Assembly: GCA_001839685.1 (NCBI GenBank)
Contig: MLAK01000671.1
Location: forward strand, 49,569-107,564
Direction: 5' to 3'
Length of the DNA stretch: 57,996 nucleotides
Source of the DNA: Tritrichomonas foetus
Taxonomy: Eukaryota; Parabasalia; Tritrichomonadida; Tritrichomonadidae
A program made the translations under genes and the position numbers. Of this stretch, positions 4,207 to 57,996 are shown piece after piece (position 1 is the first letter of the stretch; each line of letters opens with the position of its first letter). Under the pieces are notes generated by a model. The model had not been told where the DNA came from. It saw only the letters and a program-made list of their open reading frames with translations, and did not search any database.

Positions 4207-4460
4207 CATTTCGAAATTGAGAACTTTTTAAATCCATTCACAATTTCTATTCAGATGAAAAATCATAATATCTCTGTAAAAATGATAAATATTGATTATT
4301 AAAATAATCTATTTGTTTTAACCACTAAAATAATATTGATTGAAAATATATTTTAAATAAATAATATGTAAGCCAGTTTCTTTTTGCCAGATTTTGATTT
4401 CTGAGAGAAAGATTTATTATCTATTGAAAAAATGTCGGTCAAATGTATGTCAAAAAAAAA

Positions 4461-4467
4461 TCACTTT
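4461..4467 (+). promoter_or_regulatory. Initiator-like motif that decides the start at 4475
   Basis: TCACTTT with A+1 at 4463 lies 12 nt before the ATG at 4475. Because it lies inside the longer open frame (which opens with TTG at 4394), it supports 4475 as the true start. Confidence 0.6.
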
Positions 4468-4474
4468 TTTTGTC

Positions 4475-6484
4475 ATGAAATGCTGTGTTTGTGGCTGCCC
4501 TAATGAACTCCAATTTTGTCCAAATTGTCATGTTCCTATGTTTACATCCACTGATAATCATATTAGCTTTGCATTCATTCAAAATGCAAATGTCACGAAT
4601 ATTGATTCAAATCTTTTAAATTCTATTGTTCTTGATTATTTTAAGAGTTCAATTCAAAATGCTGAAATTGACTCTTTCAATCAGCTAAAACAACTTCGCC
4701 TTTCGCATTGTTCCAATCTTCGCACAATTATTTTAAGAAACTTACCAAGCCTTTTAGCACTTGATGCATCAGATTGTGAGAAGCTTACTGAATGTGAAAT
4801 AATTAATTGTCCAAATTTAAAAGCACTAGATTTATCATTTTGTCCATCACTTCTAAAATTCAGGGGTGATTTTCCAAAACTTGAGTACATTTCTTTAGCT
4901 CATACACAATTTGTTAAAAAACCACAAGATGATAATGAAGATGAAAATCGTTTAAATATTTATTGTGATAAATTACCAAATTTCCCTTCTGCTAAATTTA
5001 TAGATATAAGTAATACATCTTTTGTTGATATTTCTTCCCTTTATGAATGTCAAAACCTTCAGAAACTTATCATGGAGAGAGGAAAGAATGTTGGAAGTAT
5101 GAAAAGAGATTTAAATATGGGAAAACTTTTAAATTTACCAAATTTCACATCTATTCTGGCCGATAATGTAAATTCAGACTTCAAAGGATGTCCCCAAAAT
5201 CATAATCTAAAAAATATTTGTATGTTTCGAAATTGTAAAATAGAAAATTATCCAGACTTTTCAAAAACTAATGCAATATTATCAGATAGAAATGTAACGT
5301 CCTTAGAGTTTGATAATGTGATTTATTCAGGTGATTGGATAAATTCATATCGACTTCTTTATGGACCATGGCCTACACCACCAAACGATTCCCAACCCAA
5401 TCCAAAGTTGGATCTTTCCAAGGTAATATTTGGTAAATTCATGCCACCAAAGAAGGTAGATTTAAAGAAAGCTGCTAATCATATAATGGGTGCTATTTTT
5501 GGTACTGCAATTGGCGATAATCTTGGTATTTTTGGTGAAGGTCATTATTCCAGGGAAATAAACATGTATATGGATTATCCGTTTGATATTACTTATGATC
5601 ATCCATTAATGACAAATCGTGGTATTCATTTCCATCGTGGCTCATTTACAGATGATACAGCCTTAATGCTCATGTTTATTCGATCTATTGTTTCCACTGG
5701 TGGAAAATTTGATCCCAATGATGCAGGTACAAAAATTCTACATTGGATTGATTGTGGTCTTGATGAACATTTGGATGGTTTTGGAATAGGACAAGGTCCT
5801 ACAACTGCTAAAGTTGCTCATTCCCCAAGTTTTACAACAAAAAGTATTGCAGTTTCAAAGAAAGTTTGGGAAGATGGTGGAAAATATAGTGCTGCAAATG
5901 GAGGAGTAATGAGAACTGGTGCATGCGGGTGTTTTCAATTTTGGAATGAACGAAAAGTGATTAAAAATGCAACAGAATTCTGTCAAGTAACTCATTATGA
6001 TCCACGCTGTGTTTTTAGTTGTGTTTTAGTTTCTTTAATCATTTCGAGATTGATTCAACAAAATGTTGGACTGATTCGAACTTTCGATCTTGAAAAAACC
6101 ATTCAAGAAGCTAAAAAGAAATTCCCTAAATTAAATTATTCAGAAATTGATCCATTTTTATATGCTTCAAATATCGAAGACCTTCGTTTAACAGATCAAG
6201 TTCCACCAACATTGAATACAATGGCATGTGCAATTTATGTTTTACGTCAAAATTTCACTTATGAACAAGGAATAGAAGCAATTTGCAGAGGTGGTGGAGA
6301 TGTTGATACGAATAACGCTTGTGCAGGTGCTGTACTTGGTGCAAAATGGGGATTCGATCATATTCCTATTCGAGTTCTAAATTACATGTGGTATGGTGGA
6401 ATATTATATCGAGATACAATTCCATTTTTGAATATGATGGGAATGAATTTTGAGCCACCAAAATATGAATATTTTATGGTATAA
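4475..6484 (+). CDS. Zinc-ribbon / leucine-rich repeat / ADP-ribosylglycohydrolase fusion
   Basis: The 669-residue protein has three parts. First is a small zinc ribbon (C3-x2-C6...C15-x2-C18). Then come irregular leucine-rich repeats with Asn/Cys ladders (about 45-295). Last is an ADP-ribosylglycohydrolase (DraG/ARH-type) domain at about 330-660. Catalytic signatures are present: 'GTAIGDNLG' near residue 343, 'FTDDTAL' (T392, D393, D394) and 'GGDVDTN' (D609, D611, T612). These residues coordinate the two metal ions in the family, so hydrolysis of an ADP-ribosyl bond is expected. The LRR probably selects the target. The ATG at 4475 is chosen because the upstream frame opens only with TTG and an Inr-like motif sits at 4461. 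No signal peptide is seen, so it is likely cytosolic or nuclear. Confidence 0.9.
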   Translation: MKCCVCGCPNELQFCPNCHVPMFTSTDNHISFAFIQNANVTNIDSNLLNSIVLDYFKSSIQNAEIDSFNQLKQLRLSHCSNLRTIILRNLPSLLALDASDCEKLTECEIINCPNLKALDLSFCPSLLKFRGDFPKLEYISLAHTQFVKKPQDDNEDENRLNIYCDKLPNFPSAKFIDISNTSFVDISSLYECQNLQKLIMERGKNVGSMKRDLNMGKLLNLPNFTSILADNVNSDFKGCPQNHNLKNICMFRNCKIENYPDFSKTNAILSDRNVTSLEFDNVIYSGDWINSYRLLYGPWPTPPNDSQPNPKLDLSKVIFGKFMPPKKVDLKKAANHIMGAIFGTAIGDNLGIFGEGHYSREINMYMDYPFDITYDHPLMTNRGIHFHRGSFTDDTALMLMFIRSIVSTGGKFDPNDAGTKILHWIDCGLDEHLDGFGIGQGPTTAKVAHSPSFTTKSIAVSKKVWEDGGKYSAANGGVMRTGACGCFQFWNERKVIKNATEFCQVTHYDPRCVFSCVLVSLIISRLIQQNVGLIRTFDLEKTIQEAKKKFPKLNYSEIDPFLYASNIEDLRLTDQVPPTLNTMACAIYVLRQNFTYEQGIEAICRGGGDVDTNNACAGAVLGAKWGFDHIPIRVLNYMWYGGILYRDTIPFLNMMGMNFEPPKYEYFMV

Positions 6485-27084: not shown

Positions 27085-28062
27085 ATGAGCACTAACACTT
27101 CGAAAGCTGGAAGTCAACGGTCCACCAAGAAATCTCCAGAGCGTGTCCAGAATCAACCAAAGCAATTTCAGAATAAAACATCACCTACTCGTTCATCTGG
27201 CCATGTATCACATCACACTACTCATACAAGTAAATTAATTTCCCCAAACACATCTGAAAAAACTGTAGAATCATATAATATTGAAACGATTCTTGGATTC
27301 ATGAATTTCAACGACAAACCATTCTATTTGGTTCATTGGAAGGGGTATGACAATCCTGATGACATGACATGGGAGCCAGAAGAAGAAATCAGAAATTGTA
27401 AAGATGCTGTGAATGCTTTTTGGGAGAAAAATTCAGACATTTATTCAAAAGCTGGCTTGAATGAATCTACATCAGACGCTTCAATTTCTGTTGAAAGTGA
27501 AGGTGATTCAGAATCTGATGAAGAATCTGAATCTAATCAAAATTCTGATGAATTACCAGAAAATAATATCATTGCAAACCAAAACACGAAAAAGCAAAGC
27601 AGTTCATCGAATAGTGGATATACCAAAAAGTCTAAAAACTCTGATCAGAAATCACCAAAGCATAAATCGAATGCTTCACATGATAAATCAAGGAAAAATT
27701 CCAAATCAAAGAAAGAAGATGACTTCGAAGAAATCATCAAAAAGAATCATGATTATATTGCTGAAGGAATAACAAACTCGAGATATAAAAATTCACATCA
27801 ACAGTATTTTATTAAATGGTGTGGATATCCAGAATCAGATGGAACTTGGGTTAATGAATCATGTGTAGATCCACAACTTGTGAAAGTTTATCGATTGCTT
27901 TATTGTAGTCCGTCTGTTACTCAAATGAGGGTGACAGTTTGTAACAAAAATGCAAAAACTCATAAATTTAATGTTTTATTTAGTAATGGTCAGCTTGCAT
28001 GGCTTTCTGAGGCACAAGTTGAACCAAATTTACTGAAAGAGTTTAAGGCAAAAGGGTTTTAA
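27085..28062 (+). CDS. Double chromodomain protein
   Basis: In the 325-residue protein, chromodomain 1 (about 64-120) is HP1/Polycomb-like: 'YNIETILGF', 'FYLVHWKGYDNPDDMTWEPE'. The aromatic positions expected to cage methyl-lysine (Y near 64, W in 'HWKGY', W in 'TWEP') are present. A Ser/Glu/Lys-rich linker follows. A second, weaker chromodomain-like segment (about 215-265) has 'YFIKWCGYPESDGTWVNES'. The last 50 residues ('MRVTVCNKNAKTHKFNVLFS...LLKEFKAKGF') could be a shadow-type domain. A histone-methyl-lysine reader of HP1 style is likely. The chromo-shadow-like protein at 13624 is a possible partner. The start is the first in-frame ATG. Confidence 0.9.
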   Translation: MSTNTSKAGSQRSTKKSPERVQNQPKQFQNKTSPTRSSGHVSHHTTHTSKLISPNTSEKTVESYNIETILGFMNFNDKPFYLVHWKGYDNPDDMTWEPEEEIRNCKDAVNAFWEKNSDIYSKAGLNESTSDASISVESEGDSESDEESESNQNSDELPENNIIANQNTKKQSSSSNSGYTKKSKNSDQKSPKHKSNASHDKSRKNSKSKKEDDFEEIIKKNHDYIAEGITNSRYKNSHQQYFIKWCGYPESDGTWVNESCVDPQLVKVYRLLYCSPSVTQMRVTVCNKNAKTHKFNVLFSNGQLAWLSEAQVEPNLLKEFKAKGF

Positions 28063-48600: not shown

Positions 48601-51600
48601 CAAGAAGGTGATCCACAAAATAATTTTCTGGGGACTTATGTACTCGAAAGTTTTATTACTTTTGATATGACCCCAAGCAAAGCTATATTGAAAATTAATT
48701 CATGTCATTCGTCAGCCTGTGTGAGTGCTCGAGACTTTACATCACCTATTGGGAATAAGACATTTACAAATAGTCAAATCATGACTATTGCATCATATGA
48801 AATTGAGATTAACAGTCAAATTAATGAGTTGCTTGAGTATAAAATGAAAAATTCTAAAATGAGATTAACAATATCTGATACAATTAATTATGATATTGAT
48901 GAAGTCAATTCATATGATAAAGATCAAACTTGTAGTGAACCGATCAACAATAGTGAGTTAAAACTCAAAGTTCATTTTGATGAATGTAATTCATTAGTAG
49001 TCAATATTGAGCCTATGCAAAAATTACATAGTTTAGGCTTCAATACCAGTGACAATAACGTAATATTCAATAATCAGAATGAGAATAATAAAGTTGATAG
49101 TACAAATATCAATAATAATGAAAGTAATAGTGTTAGAAAAAATAGAGTTTCATTTCAAGCCGGTTTTGTTAAACCACCCAATAAAATTATCCAACATCCT
49201 AGGAAAGTTGAATTACACGAGGATGAAAATCAAGGGCAAATAATATTATCTGATTCACATAACAAAGCATATTCGAACATAGGATTTGGAACTTCTTTAG
49301 ATGGAACAAATTCCCCATTTAAATCATCGCTTGAATATTTACTGAATCCTTCTGATGAAGAAATAGTTGTAAAACAAGTCGAAGAGATTAAAGATATCAA
49401 TTATCTTAATAATCAAAAAAATATAGTGTTTGATAATAATCAGAATTTAACTCAAGGTGATTTGAAAATATCACCTGTTCATATTAATATGAATAGTTCT
49501 AATGGTAAAAACAAAATATATAACCAAAATTATAATTATGAACAGGAAACAGTTTTTTCAAATTGCAATTATCTCCCCAAACTCACTAATTCATTAATAA
49601 ATCATATTTACATTCCTAGAATATCACATAATTCAGATAATCATTATAATCCTGAAATGAATGAGAGTATTATTGATAGATCTCGGTCTCATGTGACACA
49701 AAATCTACAAAATCAAGAAATTATGGCAAAAAATAATTTCTTTCTTACCCCTGAAGCAGATCTTATTGCACTTGAACTGTCAGAAGTAGGATATTTTAGT
49801 CAGATCAATAGTAATCCAAATAGATCCAAAGAACTTGATAAAATAAAGTCTTTTCATCGAGAAACTATTGTTAATTTAGATTCGACAATTGAATTTATTG
49901 ATAACAAGTTAAATAAATCACTCAATAGAATAAATAATATGCAAATAAATAACGAGTTTATGGATGATATTGAAAAATGGAAGGAAAAGCAACAAAATCT
50001 ACAAGACGATGCAAATTCTCTGAGAAAAATTATCGAGGAGATATCATCCACAACACGTGAATTGCATGAGAGACATATTGAGATTGTTGATCTGCTTACT
50101 AAAGCACTTGATACAGCTATGAAGCTAGTAAGAGGTGATGGTGAGCATTCAGAAGTCTTAATAGAAAAAATGCAGGAACAATCTGCATATATGACTGCCG
50201 CTATTAGGGAGAAAGAAAATATGTTTAAACAATCATCAGAACAACAGATCGTTTTAGCAGAAAAGAGCGATCACATATTGAATATCAACAATAGCTTGAG
50301 ACAAAAAGATGAAGAAATCGAAAAATTATCTATTGCTATGGGAGATCTAATGAATACAGTTATCGATAAGGAATCTACAATTCAAAGCTTAAAAGAGCAA
50401 AAAATAAACTACGAAGAAATCCAAAACAAAATGTATGCACAAGAAAATGATTTATATGATAAAATTAATGTTATAAATGGATTAAATTTAACTTTACAAA
50501 ATGATTTGGATTGTGAAAAAATGAAAGTAACAAAACTTCTAAATGAGAAGGAAATAGCAAAAAGCATGGAAAGTTTTCTTCATGTCCCAACTTTTGTCAT
50601 TTTTTCATACAATAATCAAACAATACCACCATCAAACTCAACAAGAAGGGTATCAACTCCTTTTGAAATTAGTTCTCAACCAACTTCATCTCGAGGTACC
50701 CGCCAAAAACCGAAATATCATCATCATACACCTTTAGCTGATTTGCCATCTAATAATACCACTAAAGCAACTCCAAATAATAATACGGATAATCAAACTA
50801 CAAATCTTCAGAAAGAGAACATATCAATTCCTCAATCCAATACACAAACTTTAAACCCAATGAATATTAGAAAAACTTTAAATCCAAATAGAGATATTAT
50901 GAAGATAAATATGATCAACAGAAATTCCATACCATTGAATTCTAGTCCAAATAATAGCAATAAAAACAGTGTTGTTTTATCTCCTAATAAAAGTGGAGAT
51001 AACCCAGTAGCAAATGAACTAGCAGTGAATTCCGTACCATACGAAACTAATCCTGTAAACTCTAGTGGAAAATATAAAAAGAGAATCATGGATTTAGAAA
51101 CTCAAATTCTTAATAAAACTAATGAAAGTATTGAGCAAAGAAATAAGATACTAGATTTCCAACAACAATTATATAAAGCAACTACTAATTTTAATAAACT
51201 CGAAAATGAATATAAGAAACTCACTGCTATTAAAAATTCATCTAATATGAAATTAGAATCAGCAGTCCAGCTTGCTGCTTCTCTTTCTTCAGAAAATGGG
51301 AGATTGCGTAAAATTCTGAATAACATTTCTAAAACATCCGCTACAGTTAGAAATGAATTAGAAAGTAGTAACAAAGAAGCTGAACTTGCGTTAAATAATG
51401 AACTCAGATCTCGACAATTATTACATGACATTCAAGCATACGGGAATCATAAAAGGCTAAAAAGTTTTGCTGCTAGACAAGCAGTTACAGTTTTGAAATG
51501 GGAAGAAAGAAGAAGGAAAATTCTGGAAATGGAGCGAAACAAATCTTTTGCTGTTCTTAAAGCAATGAACCTCATAAAACCACATGAAGAAGAAAAACGT

Positions 51601-53542: not shown

Positions 53543-55209
53543 TTAAATACGTGGTCTCGTTAGATCTGTTTCCCTCATTGAATTCGATCTCCTTCTCATC
53601 TGCGGCGACCCAACCAACTGTTGAAACGGCCTTGCCAGCTTGGGAACCTGCTCTGCCCCTCTGTTTGGTGATGATGGAAAATGTTTAGCCGCTTTGTAAT
53701 TCATTGATGATGCCACTTCAGGATTTGAGAGTTTGCTTACAAGTAACTTGGTTGGGAGGGGAACGCCAGGTGCTTGTCGTGGCCTCTTGTATTCAGATGT
53801 TGGAAGAGGAATCGATGGTCTCTTAATCATTGATTTTGTGATTGATGAAGTTTGTGGAGTATTCTTACACAATTTTCGATTCTCAATTGCTGCAAGTGAA
53901 ATGTCACTCATCTGGTCAGTAATTTTCACTTTTCTCAGCATTCGATATACAGCAGTAATTTTATTGACTTTACCTTCAATCAAATCTGTTACAATTTTAG
54001 TACAATCATAACCAAGTGATGTCATTTTAACAATAATTTCACGATCAATATCGCCAGAGCCAAGCGTAGAGATTTTCCAATCACAATTTGAGCCTAGATT
54101 CATATTCATCATTTGGTGAAGCTTGTATTTGGAGAACCAAGGATGTTCTTTAATTTTCTGAAGTGTTATTCTTTCGGCTGGATTTTTTGTGAGCATTCGA
54201 GAAATCAAATCTTTCAAAGGAGGTGAAATATTTGATGGATATGTTGGTTCGGTATAAGCAATTTTTTGAAGCAATCTTTGCATGTTCTCATCTTCAAATG
54301 GCAGCTCGCCCATACACATTGCATACAATAATACTCCAGCACTCCATAAATCTGATGCTGTTGTATATGACTGTCCCCGAATCATCTCTGGTGAAGCATA
54401 AGCTGTGGGTTAGCTAAAAAAATAAGAGGTTTTCTTTCAAGATTTCAAAATTGATATGCATCCAAAAAACATCATTCATAAGCAGTTATATTAAGACCAT
54501 ATTATATATAATTTGATTTATTATACAATACACTCAAGATAATTTGATAAAACTTGTTTAAAAATTGCTTAATATTTTGACGAATGAAAACATCGTTTTG
54601 ATGAAGAAGCGCTGGGTTTTTGAAATTGCTTATGGATTGAATGATGTATTTGAATCAACACAATTTGAAAATCGAAAAAGAAAATTAATGATACATACCT
54701 GGAGATCCGCATGCGGTCTTCAAAAATGGATCATCATCCGTAAAAATATTCGATAATCCAAAATCAATAAGTCTGATGTTAAAATGACGATCAAGTAACA
54801 CGTTTTCTGCTTTTAAGTCGCGATGTGCAATTTTCTTTTCTTCATGAAGATACTCAAGAACTGAAATAAGCTGACAGAAGTAATGACGAGCTTGATTTTC
54901 TTGAAGTTCTCCATTGTTATTCACATAATCAAGCATGTTTCCGTTTTCGACCAATTCCATAATAATATAATAATTGCTGTCATCTTGAATCACGTCGTAA
55001 AATTCGGCTATGAAAGGATGATCTAATTTTCGAATAAGATCAACTTCACGACGAAATCTTTCTTCGAAGTCTGAATCGTGGAAATTTTGTCGAGAGATTC
55101 GTTTCACGGCAACTTTGGTTTTTGTGACTTGATGAATACCTAATAAGACAGAAGCAAAGGTCCCTGAGCCAATGGCCCTTTCGAGGATATAGTCTCCTAC
55201 TATTGCCAT
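53543..55209 (-). CDS. SNF1/MARK-type Ser/Thr protein kinase, two exons
   Basis: The coding sequence is exon 1 (55209-54699) joined to exon 2 (54402-53543), 1371 nt including the stop, 456 residues. The kinase domain has the Gly-rich loop 'GSGTFASV' (14-21), K36, 'HRDLKAEN' (D131), 'DFGLS' (D149), and the activation segment 'TACGSPAYASPEM', which is completed only by splicing (A171 spans the junction). T165 is the expected LKB1-type phosphosite. A UBA-like helical segment follows (about 310-350, 'DREIIVKMTSLGYDCTKIV'), as in AMPK/SNF1- and MARK-related kinases, then a basic Ser/Pro tail. The 5-nt leader carries an Inr-like motif (minus-strand TCATTC). It is likely an active cytosolic kinase of the CAMK group. 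Confidence 0.92.
54403..54698 (-). other. Spliceosomal intron, 296 bp, trichomonad type
   Basis: On the minus strand the intron begins GTATGT and ends GCTAACCCACAG, in which branch site (CTAAC) and 3' splice site are fused as in Trichomonas introns (GTAYGT...ACTAACACACAG). Removal restores the kinase frame exactly, turning 'CGSP-G' plus a stop into 'CGSPAYASPEM'. Unspliced RNA would stop three codons after the junction. Confidence 0.93.
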
Positions 55210-55250: not shown

Positions 55251-55380
55251 CAGTCGTTTTCGAATTGGTTTTCTTAGTGTTTCGAAATAGAATTTCAATA
55301 TTTCAAATGTTTATACAGTCGTTTTCGAATTGGTTTTCTTTGTGTTTCGAAATAGAATTTCAGTATTTCAATGGTTTATA
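55251..55380. repeat. 65-bp tandem duplication
   Basis: Two adjacent 65-bp units (55251-55315, 55316-55380) differ at about four positions. Each carries two TTCGAA palindromes and one copy of TTTCGAAATAGAATTT. Confidence 0.9.
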
Positions 55381-55557
55381 TAAGAAACTAGAATATTTTT
55401 CGAAAAGCTTTCAAAATGTTTCGATTTGCTTTCCAATGTTTTCGAAATAGAATCTTAACCGATTTTTTTTTCGAAATAGAATTTTAAAATTTGAATAGTT
55501 TACAAAACAACCATAATTTGTTTCATAATAAAATTTTTTTGTTTCGAAATAGAATTT
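55259..55557. repeat. TTTCGAAATAGAATTT repeat array between kinase and USP-transposase
   Basis: The 16-bp motif, with a TTTCGAAA palindromic core, occurs at 55280, 55345, 55440 (last bases CT), 55469 and 55542. Including partial copies, the palindrome TTCGAA occurs eight times in 290 bp (55259, 55281, 55324, 55346, 55399, 55441, 55470, 55543). All full motifs have the same orientation. Candidate roles are protein-binding sites (transposase or transcription factor) or a decaying satellite. The surrounding 55210-55755 stretch holds no other gene. Confidence 0.8.
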
Positions 55558-55743
55558 TTTTATTAGTGGAATAGTAGATTATTTATCATTTTTGTTAGAT
55601 GAAATTTTATACCCGACATAAAATATAAACACGAAACACACAAAAATAAACTAAACCGACGAGTAGAATTCTTCTTAATTTAATAATAACGTACGAAGAT
55701 CAACACACTCAATCACCTTGAAGATTATCTAATTTTTAACACT

Positions 55744-55748
55744 TCATT
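55744..55748 (+). promoter_or_regulatory. Initiator-like motif of USP-transposase gene
   Basis: TCATT with A+1 at 55746 gives a 10-nt leader to the ATG at 55756, the same geometry as neighbouring host genes. Confidence 0.55.
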
Positions 55749-55755
55749 TTTTAAA

Positions 55756-57933
55756 ATGCTTGGACATAAAATCGGCATAAGAAATTTGGGCAACACTTGT
55801 TTTGCAGCCTCTGTTTTGCAGCTAATGCTTAATATCACCAAGTTTAACAAAACATTGCAACAACTCGAATATAAAGATGAAGAAGGAAAACAGATTCTCA
55901 AGTTTTTTTCACATACTGAAAATTTCCAAAAGGAAGATCTTGAAGCACTCCTTGTTACCGGAATGAAATTTGTTGAAAATATTAATCAAATTGAACAAAA
56001 AGACGCGCACGAATTTCTTTTAAAATTTTTGGAAAGTATCAATGAACACTGTCGTGATCCTAACTGTAGCGATTTATATAACTTGTTTTTAATAGAAAAA
56101 CAGATTATAACATATTATTCGAATGGTACTGACGAAGAAGAAAATATTTCCAATGAAAAATTTATTTTCGAAAATGTAAGCCCTGAAATTGGTGATTTAC
56201 AAAAGCATATCAATTCAATCGCAGAAGCACCACATGTATTAATCTCAGATGCTCCTGAACGAATTTCACAGTCGATACGCATTATCAAATCCCCATCAGT
56301 TTTGTTGTTCATGATTCGAAGAGTGGAGATCGATGGTGACAATGCACAACGAAACACTACACCTGTGAAATACTCTCCTGAAATCATGTATCATGGAAAA
56401 CAATATCGATTATATGGAGTAATCAATCACAACACAAATCAAATTACTGATCCCCAATGGGGCCATTATATTACACACTGTTATGAATTTGCTACAAGCA
56501 AAGTATATACTTTCAATGATTCATTAGTGATCGAAGATCAACCAAATGTTCTATACATCGGACAAGGAAATATGACACCGCAAACTCTTGCTTATATTGT
56601 TGCATATATTTCACAAGATGAAATAGATTCATTATTTAGTGCATCAGAAGGAAGCAACAATCAAAATGGAATACAATACGTAGCACCAGAAGTTAATTCA
56701 TGTATTCAACAAGTGAACTTTTTAGATAGTCGACAAGAAGATGCACTTGAAACATTTATTAGAAATGCCCCAAACCCAGAAAGTACACAAGCAACGAGAA
56801 TTGCATCACAAGATCTTAATGATCTATCAACGCCCATCATTCTTTCGTTTCCAGAATCAACATCACCCACAGAAGAAAGTGCATCACAAGAAAAGAGAGC
56901 ATACCAAAAAACAACAAATGACGCAAGAAGATTATTAACAAAACTTTATCAAGTAAATGGTGACAAAAAAACACCACTGGAATATTCGGCAGAATCAGGA
57001 ATTAAGCTTGGAAATTGTAAAAAGTTATTATACCAGCTGAAAAAAGGAGAATCTATAGAAATTAAACAATATAAAAGGGGAAGAAAATCCAAAATCACAC
57101 CTCATTTCGCACAATTAATTCATGATGAACTTGAAGAACATTCTACAGAGTCACTCAGAGAAGTAGCTCGCCAAATTGCTCTTCAAAACGACAGTACCAG
57201 TAATGATCAAATTCCATCGTATTCATCCATTTATCGTTATGCAACATCTCACAGGATTGCTGATGATTTTGGTTGTAATGTTTATTCTTTCAAAGTAGCT
57301 TCAATTCGCGGCCCATCATCAAATGCTGAATCAAATAAAGATCTAAGAATTGAACGAATTAAACTGCTTAATCATTATATTACTGAGGGATTTGTTTGGT
57401 CAGCAGTTGATGAAGTGTCGATCGAAATTGGAACAATTCGCAGAAGAGCTTGGTCACAAAAAGGAGAAAAAGCCTTTATTAATGTTAAACCACAAGCATA
57501 TAGATGTTCTGCGATTGCTTCCATATCAAACAATGGAATGTCTTATTGTCTTCTTGTCCCAGGGACAGTGAATGGAGAACTTTTTCAAGCTTTCATGAAA
57601 TACTTGATTAACTCACTGCAGAAACAAGGAAATATTGTTTTTTGGATGGATAATGCCAAGATTCACAGTCGAATTGAAAATATTGTCCAGAAAGGAAATC
57701 ATGTTGCTATTTATAATGCTGCATATTCACCAGAGCTCAATCCGATTGAGCTCATTTTTGGTCATTGGAAGAGTATCATCAAAAGAGAAGTGAAAGACTG
57801 GTCAAATGAAATGGATTTATATCAAAAGATAGCTAATTGTTTTAATCATATCGACCCCACTGAAATTCGTAAAGTTATGACTCATGTATCAACCAAGGTA
57901 TTTGCCAAAGTATTAAACCGTGAAAACATATGA
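55756..57933 (+). CDS. Ubiquitin-specific protease fused to IS630/Tc1-type DDE transposase
   Basis: One uninterrupted 725-residue frame. Residues 1 to about 275 form a USP (peptidase C19) domain: Cys box 'NLGNTCFAASVLQ' (C15, oxyanion N10), 'QKDAHEFLLKF' (D83-F87), His box 'GHYITHC' (H237) and 'YTFNDS' (N254/D255), so the catalytic set looks complete. A Ser/Glu/Gln linker follows (about 275-385), then a paired-type helix-turn-helix region (about 390-510, 'SLREVARQIAL', 'SYSSIYRYA'). An RNase-H-like DDE domain (about 545-700) has 'VDEVSIE' (D552), 'FWMDNAKIHSR' (D632) and 'SPELNPIELIFGHWK' (E665), spacing DD32E. No terminal repeats could be defined in the 63 bp left downstream. It could be an active transposase with a protease arm or a domesticated gene. 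Confidence 0.9.
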   Translation: MLGHKIGIRNLGNTCFAASVLQLMLNITKFNKTLQQLEYKDEEGKQILKFFSHTENFQKEDLEALLVTGMKFVENINQIEQKDAHEFLLKFLESINEHCRDPNCSDLYNLFLIEKQIITYYSNGTDEEENISNEKFIFENVSPEIGDLQKHINSIAEAPHVLISDAPERISQSIRIIKSPSVLLFMIRRVEIDGDNAQRNTTPVKYSPEIMYHGKQYRLYGVINHNTNQITDPQWGHYITHCYEFATSKVYTFNDSLVIEDQPNVLYIGQGNMTPQTLAYIVAYISQDEIDSLFSASEGSNNQNGIQYVAPEVNSCIQQVNFLDSRQEDALETFIRNAPNPESTQATRIASQDLNDLSTPIILSFPESTSPTEESASQEKRAYQKTTNDARRLLTKLYQVNGDKKTPLEYSAESGIKLGNCKKLLYQLKKGESIEIKQYKRGRKSKITPHFAQLIHDELEEHSTESLREVARQIALQNDSTSNDQIPSYSSIYRYATSHRIADDFGCNVYSFKVASIRGPSSNAESNKDLRIERIKLLNHYITEGFVWSAVDEVSIEIGTIRRRAWSQKGEKAFINVKPQAYRCSAIASISNNGMSYCLLVPGTVNGELFQAFMKYLINSLQKQGNIVFWMDNAKIHSRIENIVQKGNHVAIYNAAYSPELNPIELIFGHWKSIIKREVKDWSNEMDLYQKIANCFNHIDPTEIRKVMTHVSTKVFAKVLNRENI

Positions 57934-57996
57934 GAATAATTAATATATTCAACAGAAACATACACTAATAATAAACAATTACATATCAACAGTTTT
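57934..57996. other. Window edge downstream of USP-transposase
   Basis: Only 63 bp remain. The reverse complement contains TATTAGTG, also present upstream at 55561-55568 in 'ttttattagtgga', which is too short to call a terminal repeat. Confidence 0.3.

Follow-up and report, generated by a model that had tools for sequence, protein, structure and literature searches.

Why should a transposase carry a domain of the deubiquitinase kind? The question is raised by a 57,996-nucleotide stretch of contig MLAK01000671.1 of Tritrichomonas foetus (GenBank assembly GCA_001839685.1, forward-strand positions 49,569 to 107,564; hereafter the window), a parasite of cattle. In it a single plus-strand open reading frame (ORF) at 55756..57933, running from ATG to TGA without an internal stop, encodes a 725-residue fusion of a ubiquitin-specific protease (USP) domain to a DDE transposase. 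The original prediction, made from the letters alone, had placed a USP, a helix-turn-helix (HTH) region and a DDE core in one frame, and this holds over 725 uninterrupted codons, as do the residues that it had named (C15, H237, N254, D552, D632 and E665, with 32 residues separating the last two). The gene almost certainly belongs to an autonomous-looking, single-gene USP-transposase transposon of the IS630/Tc1/mariner type, which has recently increased in copy number in T. foetus and is accompanied by short copies with the same ends.

One reading frame with USP and transposase domains

Profile analysis of the N-terminal part (residues 6-284; 55771..56607) recovered the Pfam UCH (peptidase C19) domain with an E-value of 6.1e-24 (85.4 bits; cut-off 23.9). 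This region possesses the motifs of the USP family, namely C15 in NLGNTCF (codon 55798-55800), H237 in GHY (56464-56466) and N254 in FNDS (56515-56517), along with N10, and its Cys and His/Asn boxes align with those of human USP2 (E 2e-6 over the whole sequence, the match of either box by itself being weak). The roles assigned to such residues in the USP and DDE families are general knowledge, and deubiquitinase activity is predicted for this part of the protein. It is followed by a linker (residues 285-375; 56608..56880), of which residues 301-375 are 48% identical across the two subfamilies described below, and by a putative DNA-binding HTH region with a RGRKSK motif (residues 376-540; 56881..57375). 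The latter is delineated by a match to HTH_32 (17.3 bits, under the cut-off of 33.7), by the helical model of residues 391-540 (predicted local distance difference test score, pLDDT, of 60-91 in this block) and by the start of the NCBIfam 'IS630 family transposase' profile (residues 432-676), whose 71.7 bits fall short of the cut-off of 100, the protein not being classed in the IS630 family proper. The DDE_3 catalytic core (residues 551-677; 57406..57786; Pfam E 5.9e-23, 81.8 bits, cut-off 28.6) contains D552 (57409-57411), D632 (57649-57651) and E665 (57748-57750). AlphaFold modeled the whole protein at a mean pLDDT of 60.6, with only the transposase part usable; Foldseek matched this part to Mos1 (E 2.3e-10), to Sleeping Beauty and to SETMAR.

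A separate start for the transposase half is not evident. The in-frame Mets at residues 273 and 595 have no other between them, and an ATG start therefore cannot yield an intact transposase without the end of the USP; this gap disfavors the interpretation of the locus as two separate genes. An initiator-like TCATT (55744..55748, plus strand) within AACACTTCATTTT lies 12 nt upstream of the USP start codon, and AACACTTCATTTT precedes the first ATG alike in the subfamily of the window copy (A) and in the divergent copies on contigs C373 and C226. The frame contains 10 further Mets; a strict TCAYW is found within 25 nt of none of them, and TCATT likewise precedes none. The argument is weakened because the loose HCAHW, which is the consensus of T. 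vaginalis (as given in the accessible text of PMC7370421), also occurs within 30 nt of 5 of these 10 (residues 186, 273, 595, 686 and 708). Thus, the initiator motif, weak when taken alone, appears to add supporting evidence to a single-protein case in which the Met gap is the stronger element.

Copies, ends and target sites

The original prediction had proposed a genome search for copies keeping both domains. In the T. foetus genome (63.7 Mb in 1064 contigs; the copy list is a lower bound) this gave at least 33 match rows in total, including eight full-length copies on eight contigs, the window copy among them, which are 100% identical at the amino-acid level over residues 1-725 and agree base for base in their coding sequence. 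Partial subfamily A copies are present on C826 (residues 1-677) and C393 (residues 1-141), a broken copy on C580 consists of four pieces, and three transposase fragments with stops lie on C438 (two, overlapping) and C615 (one). Further matches comprise a second fusion on C373, recovered in two pieces, a USP part on C226 (residues 1-305) and 13 weak USP matches with 19-35% identity. The copies bear directly on whether the fusion is a chimera, created when the assembly joined a USP gene to a transposon, a possibility that could draw on the assembly gaps following the gene in several of them. The USP/transposase junction is the same in C373 and in the nine subfamily A copies that reach that far, and the C627 copy runs unbroken through the whole element, its two ambiguous bases both lying outside the coding sequence. 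These observations refute the chimera, leaving it the most improbable of all the alternatives, and no chimeric join or stop of the kind that the original prediction had named as fatal to it separates the USP from the HTH region.

The autonomous element begins in the window with the 5' terminus CAGTCGTTTTCGAA and occupies 55316..57996 (plus strand), its 3' end lying past the window in an assembly gap of 1318 Ns behind the gene, where the right junction is unreadable. It sits at an internal TA (55314-55315) of an older non-autonomous element resembling miniature inverted-repeat transposable elements, the left-end fragment of which (55251..55315, plus strand) matches letter for letter the short copy L067 (757 bp), which is intact and reads through this point uninterrupted. 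When nine other copies are compared with that of the window, identity on the left is lost precisely before TACAGTCG in five; an ambiguous base ends it sooner in two and a variant base in one, and in the last it extends three bases further. In all five copies legible at both ends the element spans CAGTCGTTTTCGAA to TTCGAAAACGACTG with TA outside; their lengths are 2971-4041 bp, inclusive of assembly gaps in three and of a deletion in C826. The C627 element, with neither a long gap nor the C826-type deletion, measures 3285 bp excluding the TAs and has perfect terminal inverted repeats (TIRs) of 14 bp. Subterminal repeats of the form CGAAATAGAAT start at 55348, 55443, 55472 and 55545 (55348..55555, plus strand), and three inverted versions lie toward the right terminus in C627, which suggests that they are putative transposase-binding sites.

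Genome-wide, the CAGTCGTTTTCGAA pattern has 48 matches, as against one for the reversed control pattern; these comprise 13 pairs spaced by 754-758 bp, one spaced by 1600 bp, 15 termini belonging to autonomous copies and five lone ends. The 1600-bp pair and six of the 13 short pairs were retrieved, and every end read carries the TA, so that the flank comparison proposed in the original prediction revealed TIRs with TA both in the five two-ended copies and in these seven short-element regions. The six short copies are 94-95% identical to the autonomous element over the left 248-252 bp and the right 223-225 bp, and the 1600-bp relative diverges more (91% and 79% over its two ends). No frame reaching 70 codons is present in the one short copy checked for them, and the short copies look like non-autonomous relatives mobilized by the transposase of the element. 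For the short copy on C315 an empty site was found: its paralogue on C941 (93% identity) lacks the insertion and retains one TA, beside which lies a small indel. All these are footprints of insertion, and cut-and-paste is the predicted mode of transposition. As a separate observation, the truncated copy on C393 (L030) and the window copy (contig C281, L033) share their sequence on the right, past the break or gap, yet differ in their left flanks; the scaffolding across the gap behind the window copy may be wrong.

Constraint on the USP domain and its possible role

The copy on C373 (L029:2507-4462, minus strand) encodes a 651-residue fusion (P0002, TRFO_27008 of T. foetus) and typifies a second subfamily, B, to which the USP part on C226, there followed by a gap, also belongs. 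The subfamily A terminal pattern was not found around either of these. Subfamily A and C373 are 64% identical overall, with 55% identity in the USP (omega, the ratio of nonsynonymous to synonymous change, 0.21 at a synonymous divergence, dS, of 1.64) and 82% in the DDE part (omega 0.044, dS 2.36), the omega values being rough as dS is near saturation. In neutral simulations at d 1.6 or 0.8, none of 1000 frames stayed open at either value and identity to the starting sequence was at most 28%. As judged from these rates, both domains are under purifying selection between the subfamilies, and the Cys, oxyanion-type Asn, His and Asn boxes of the USP are retained in both. The C373 copy itself is probably immobile because two stretches of its transposase part are missing in frame, yet its reading frame is open and its USP intact. 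This might be due to chance, or the copy might have been retained for its USP or as a repressor of transposition. The open frame also offers an argument for a domesticated host gene that is no longer mobile, an alternative already raised in the original prediction. In subfamily A such domestication is refuted by eight identical copies at different sites within an element with TIRs, that of the window being itself nested in another element, and it could apply to C373 alone; as an account of the fusion it is only marginally less improbable than the chimera.

The provenance of the USP was sought within the genome and beyond it. Recent capture from a T. foetus host gene gained no support, as the 13 weak USP matches found at other places, with the 19-35% identity given above, yielded no donor. 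Among the UCH matches listed for the genome (143; 142 of 205 candidates scored) 136 outscore the element copies, six are these copies and one scores below them. In protein-collection searches, which are confined to proteins with short exact words in common with the query and with lengths of 0.55-1.75 times its own, the USP part retrieved, at E <= 10, the T. foetus protein P0022 (TRFO_13935) as well as P0023 (E 0.065). At 30 of the 73 DDE_3 matches of the genome, each taken with about 1.5 kb on either side, tblastn of the USP was convincing in nine subfamily A loci and C373 only. Open frames at 11 of the other 20 loci are of 171-434 residues. Among the other 43 matches, one on C1016 with a listed frame of 890 residues was discarded, being actually a 238-residue ORF beside a gap.

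These observations allow a mechanism to be proposed, in which the protein would bind the subterminal repeats and TIRs via its HTH region, the DDE core would cut, and the element would insert at TA. The USP would thereby be held at the transposon-end complex and remove ubiquitin on the spot, the transposase and its partners being the likeliest substrates, and the complex would thus be spared removal or degradation by the ubiquitin-proteasome system until integration is complete. This explanation as a whole is given about even odds (roughly 0.5), and is favored because of the identical copies, the TIRs and TA sites, the empty site, the Mos1-like fold, the retained USP residues, the constraint on the USP, the Met gap and the precedent of the Helitron VTD domains described below. 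The choice of substrate, i.e. that the USP protects the transposase complex from ubiquitin-dependent removal, is held somewhat more tentatively, though it ranks above action on chromatin or repair proteins, counter-defense and a non-catalytic role. More tentative again is the proposal that an IS630/Tc1-type transposon independently captured a USP under selection, the tethered deubiquitinase being needed for transposition or raising it.

Several results weigh against this explanation. By the rates given above the USP evolves faster than the DDE part, a sign of looser constraint on it, and between C373 and C226 its omega is 0.52 at a dS of 0.05, again indicating weak constraint. A model of the USP alone, built from four alignment rows, is poor (mean pLDDT 40.5), and although USPs top its Foldseek matches, these have E-values of 0.016 or worse. 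Finally, 10 of the 11 joined empty sites searched in the genome gave no clear match, an 80% match on C321 that spans the C627 junction by about 18 bases being too weak to count. In the AlphaFold model of the full protein, too, the USP part had few alignment rows, with P0023 misaligned among them.

The faster divergence of the USP is also what an arms race could give, and hence might be taken to favor counter-defense, in which the USP disarms a ubiquitin-dependent silencing or degradation pathway that the host directs at the element; a similar speculation has been made for germline VTDs (in the accessible text of PMC9741609). However, omega is well under 1 and weaker constraint also fits the faster change, so this alternative appears improbable. 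Slightly less probable still is a non-catalytic ubiquitin-binding or structural module, in keeping with the strong divergence of the USP, which nearly all the listed UCH matches outscore, but at odds with the retention of the Cys, Asn and His boxes across subfamilies. A stronger competitor, though on balance unlikely, is that the USP acts where the element leaves or inserts, on chromatin or repair proteins such as ubiquitinated H2A/H2B or DNA-damage factors, and might in this way open the target or tune gap repair. The tether to a DNA-binding transposase would bring the USP to chromatin, and Bao et al. propose a repair role for transposon Ulp1 and OTU domains (accessible text of PMC2836005), but no sequence feature points to histones. 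Were the selected capture of a USP that aids transposition to be the correct reading, it would imply that ubiquitin-dependent clearance of transposases or their strand-transfer complexes is a general barrier to transposition in eukaryotes; the locus suggests that some jumping genes may handle the host ubiquitin system in order to move. As a simple, single-gene and recently multiplied element with defined ends and short relatives, it would permit a direct test, by means of a C15 mutant, of whether deubiquitination helps.

The window contains other genes as well. The transposon sits just upstream of the start of a gene at 53543-55209 (minus strand), in which a protein kinase domain is divided between two ORFs (profile positions 2-161 in one and 169-263 in the other) about 300 bp apart; a GTATGT near the end of the first ORF, read by eye, might mark a spliceosomal intron. 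An ORF at 4394-6484 (plus strand) combines a leucine-rich repeat match with a following ADP-ribosylglycohydrolase domain, and another at 27085-28062 (plus strand) has two chromodomain stretches.

Comparison with known systems

With the IS630/Tc1/mariner group (Mos1, Sleeping Beauty and bacterial IS630) the element shares a DDE_3-type core, a putative HTH-like region ahead of it, TIRs, a TA target and a Mos1-like fold. It differs in the 32 residues between D632 and E665 and in the additional N-terminal USP, its protein having 725 residues as against 335-342 in the solved Mos1 chains. Outside T. foetus, searches of the protein collection with the whole protein, the USP part and the transposase part revealed no relative of the fusion that carries a USP, and none of its relatives was found in viral contigs. 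The whole protein matched only itself and P0002 at E <= 0.001, whereas the transposase part retrieved 19 proteins at E <= 10, eight of them below 0.01. The best of these, P0003 (441 residues, 31% identity), matches from residue 321 of the element onward, so that the linker is included; no USP was recognized in it, though its contig is just 1514 bp long and P0003 may therefore be cut short.

The original prediction had held that no transposon family with an N-terminal USP was known. This was too strong as worded, since Bao et al. (2010; PMC2836005) refer to Gladyshev and Arkhipova (2009) for a T. vaginalis protein, XP_001314237.1, that has Transposase_11 and Peptidase C19 domains, their order not being apparent from the accessible text. 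The part that stands concerns the IS630/Tc1 type: among the titles and abstract openings of the literature matches listed, no USP on such a transposase was found, though a prior note, e.g. in Repbase, is possible. Transposon families are often reported in Repbase alone. Compared by description only, XP_001314237.1 comes from a related parasite and resembles the present protein in uniting a USP-family protease with a DDE transposase, but its transposase is of the Transposase_11 type (the cited reference concerns an IS5-like transposon) rather than DDE_3, and Transposase_11 (PF01609) had no match in the T. foetus genome. An IS481EU element has been described in T. foetus, and 'protease', 'ubiquitin' and 'OTU' are absent from the accessible text of that report (PMC10045372).

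Deubiquitinase and SUMO-protease domains recur across unrelated transposons. Ginger1 elements are found with OTU or Ulp1, Mutator with Ulp1 and Helitrons with OTU (PMC2836005, accessible text). In Ginger1 and Mutator, as in the present element, the transposase protein itself bears a ubiquitin or SUMO protease, but the protease families and transposase superfamilies are different ones and the protease of Ginger1 is C-terminal (same source). Helitrons with VTD and/or OTU domains likewise encode a deubiquitinase, though of other families and alongside a rolling-circle RepHel protein; according to the accessible text of PMC9741609, three zebrafish Helitron VTDs are active deubiquitinases in vitro, and its authors suggest that VTD domains shield transposition proteins from the proteasome. 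If the proposed capture and its role in transposition are correct, the T. foetus element would represent one more uptake of a ubiquitin- or SUMO-removing enzyme by a DNA transposon, with USP joining OTU, Ulp1 and VTD.
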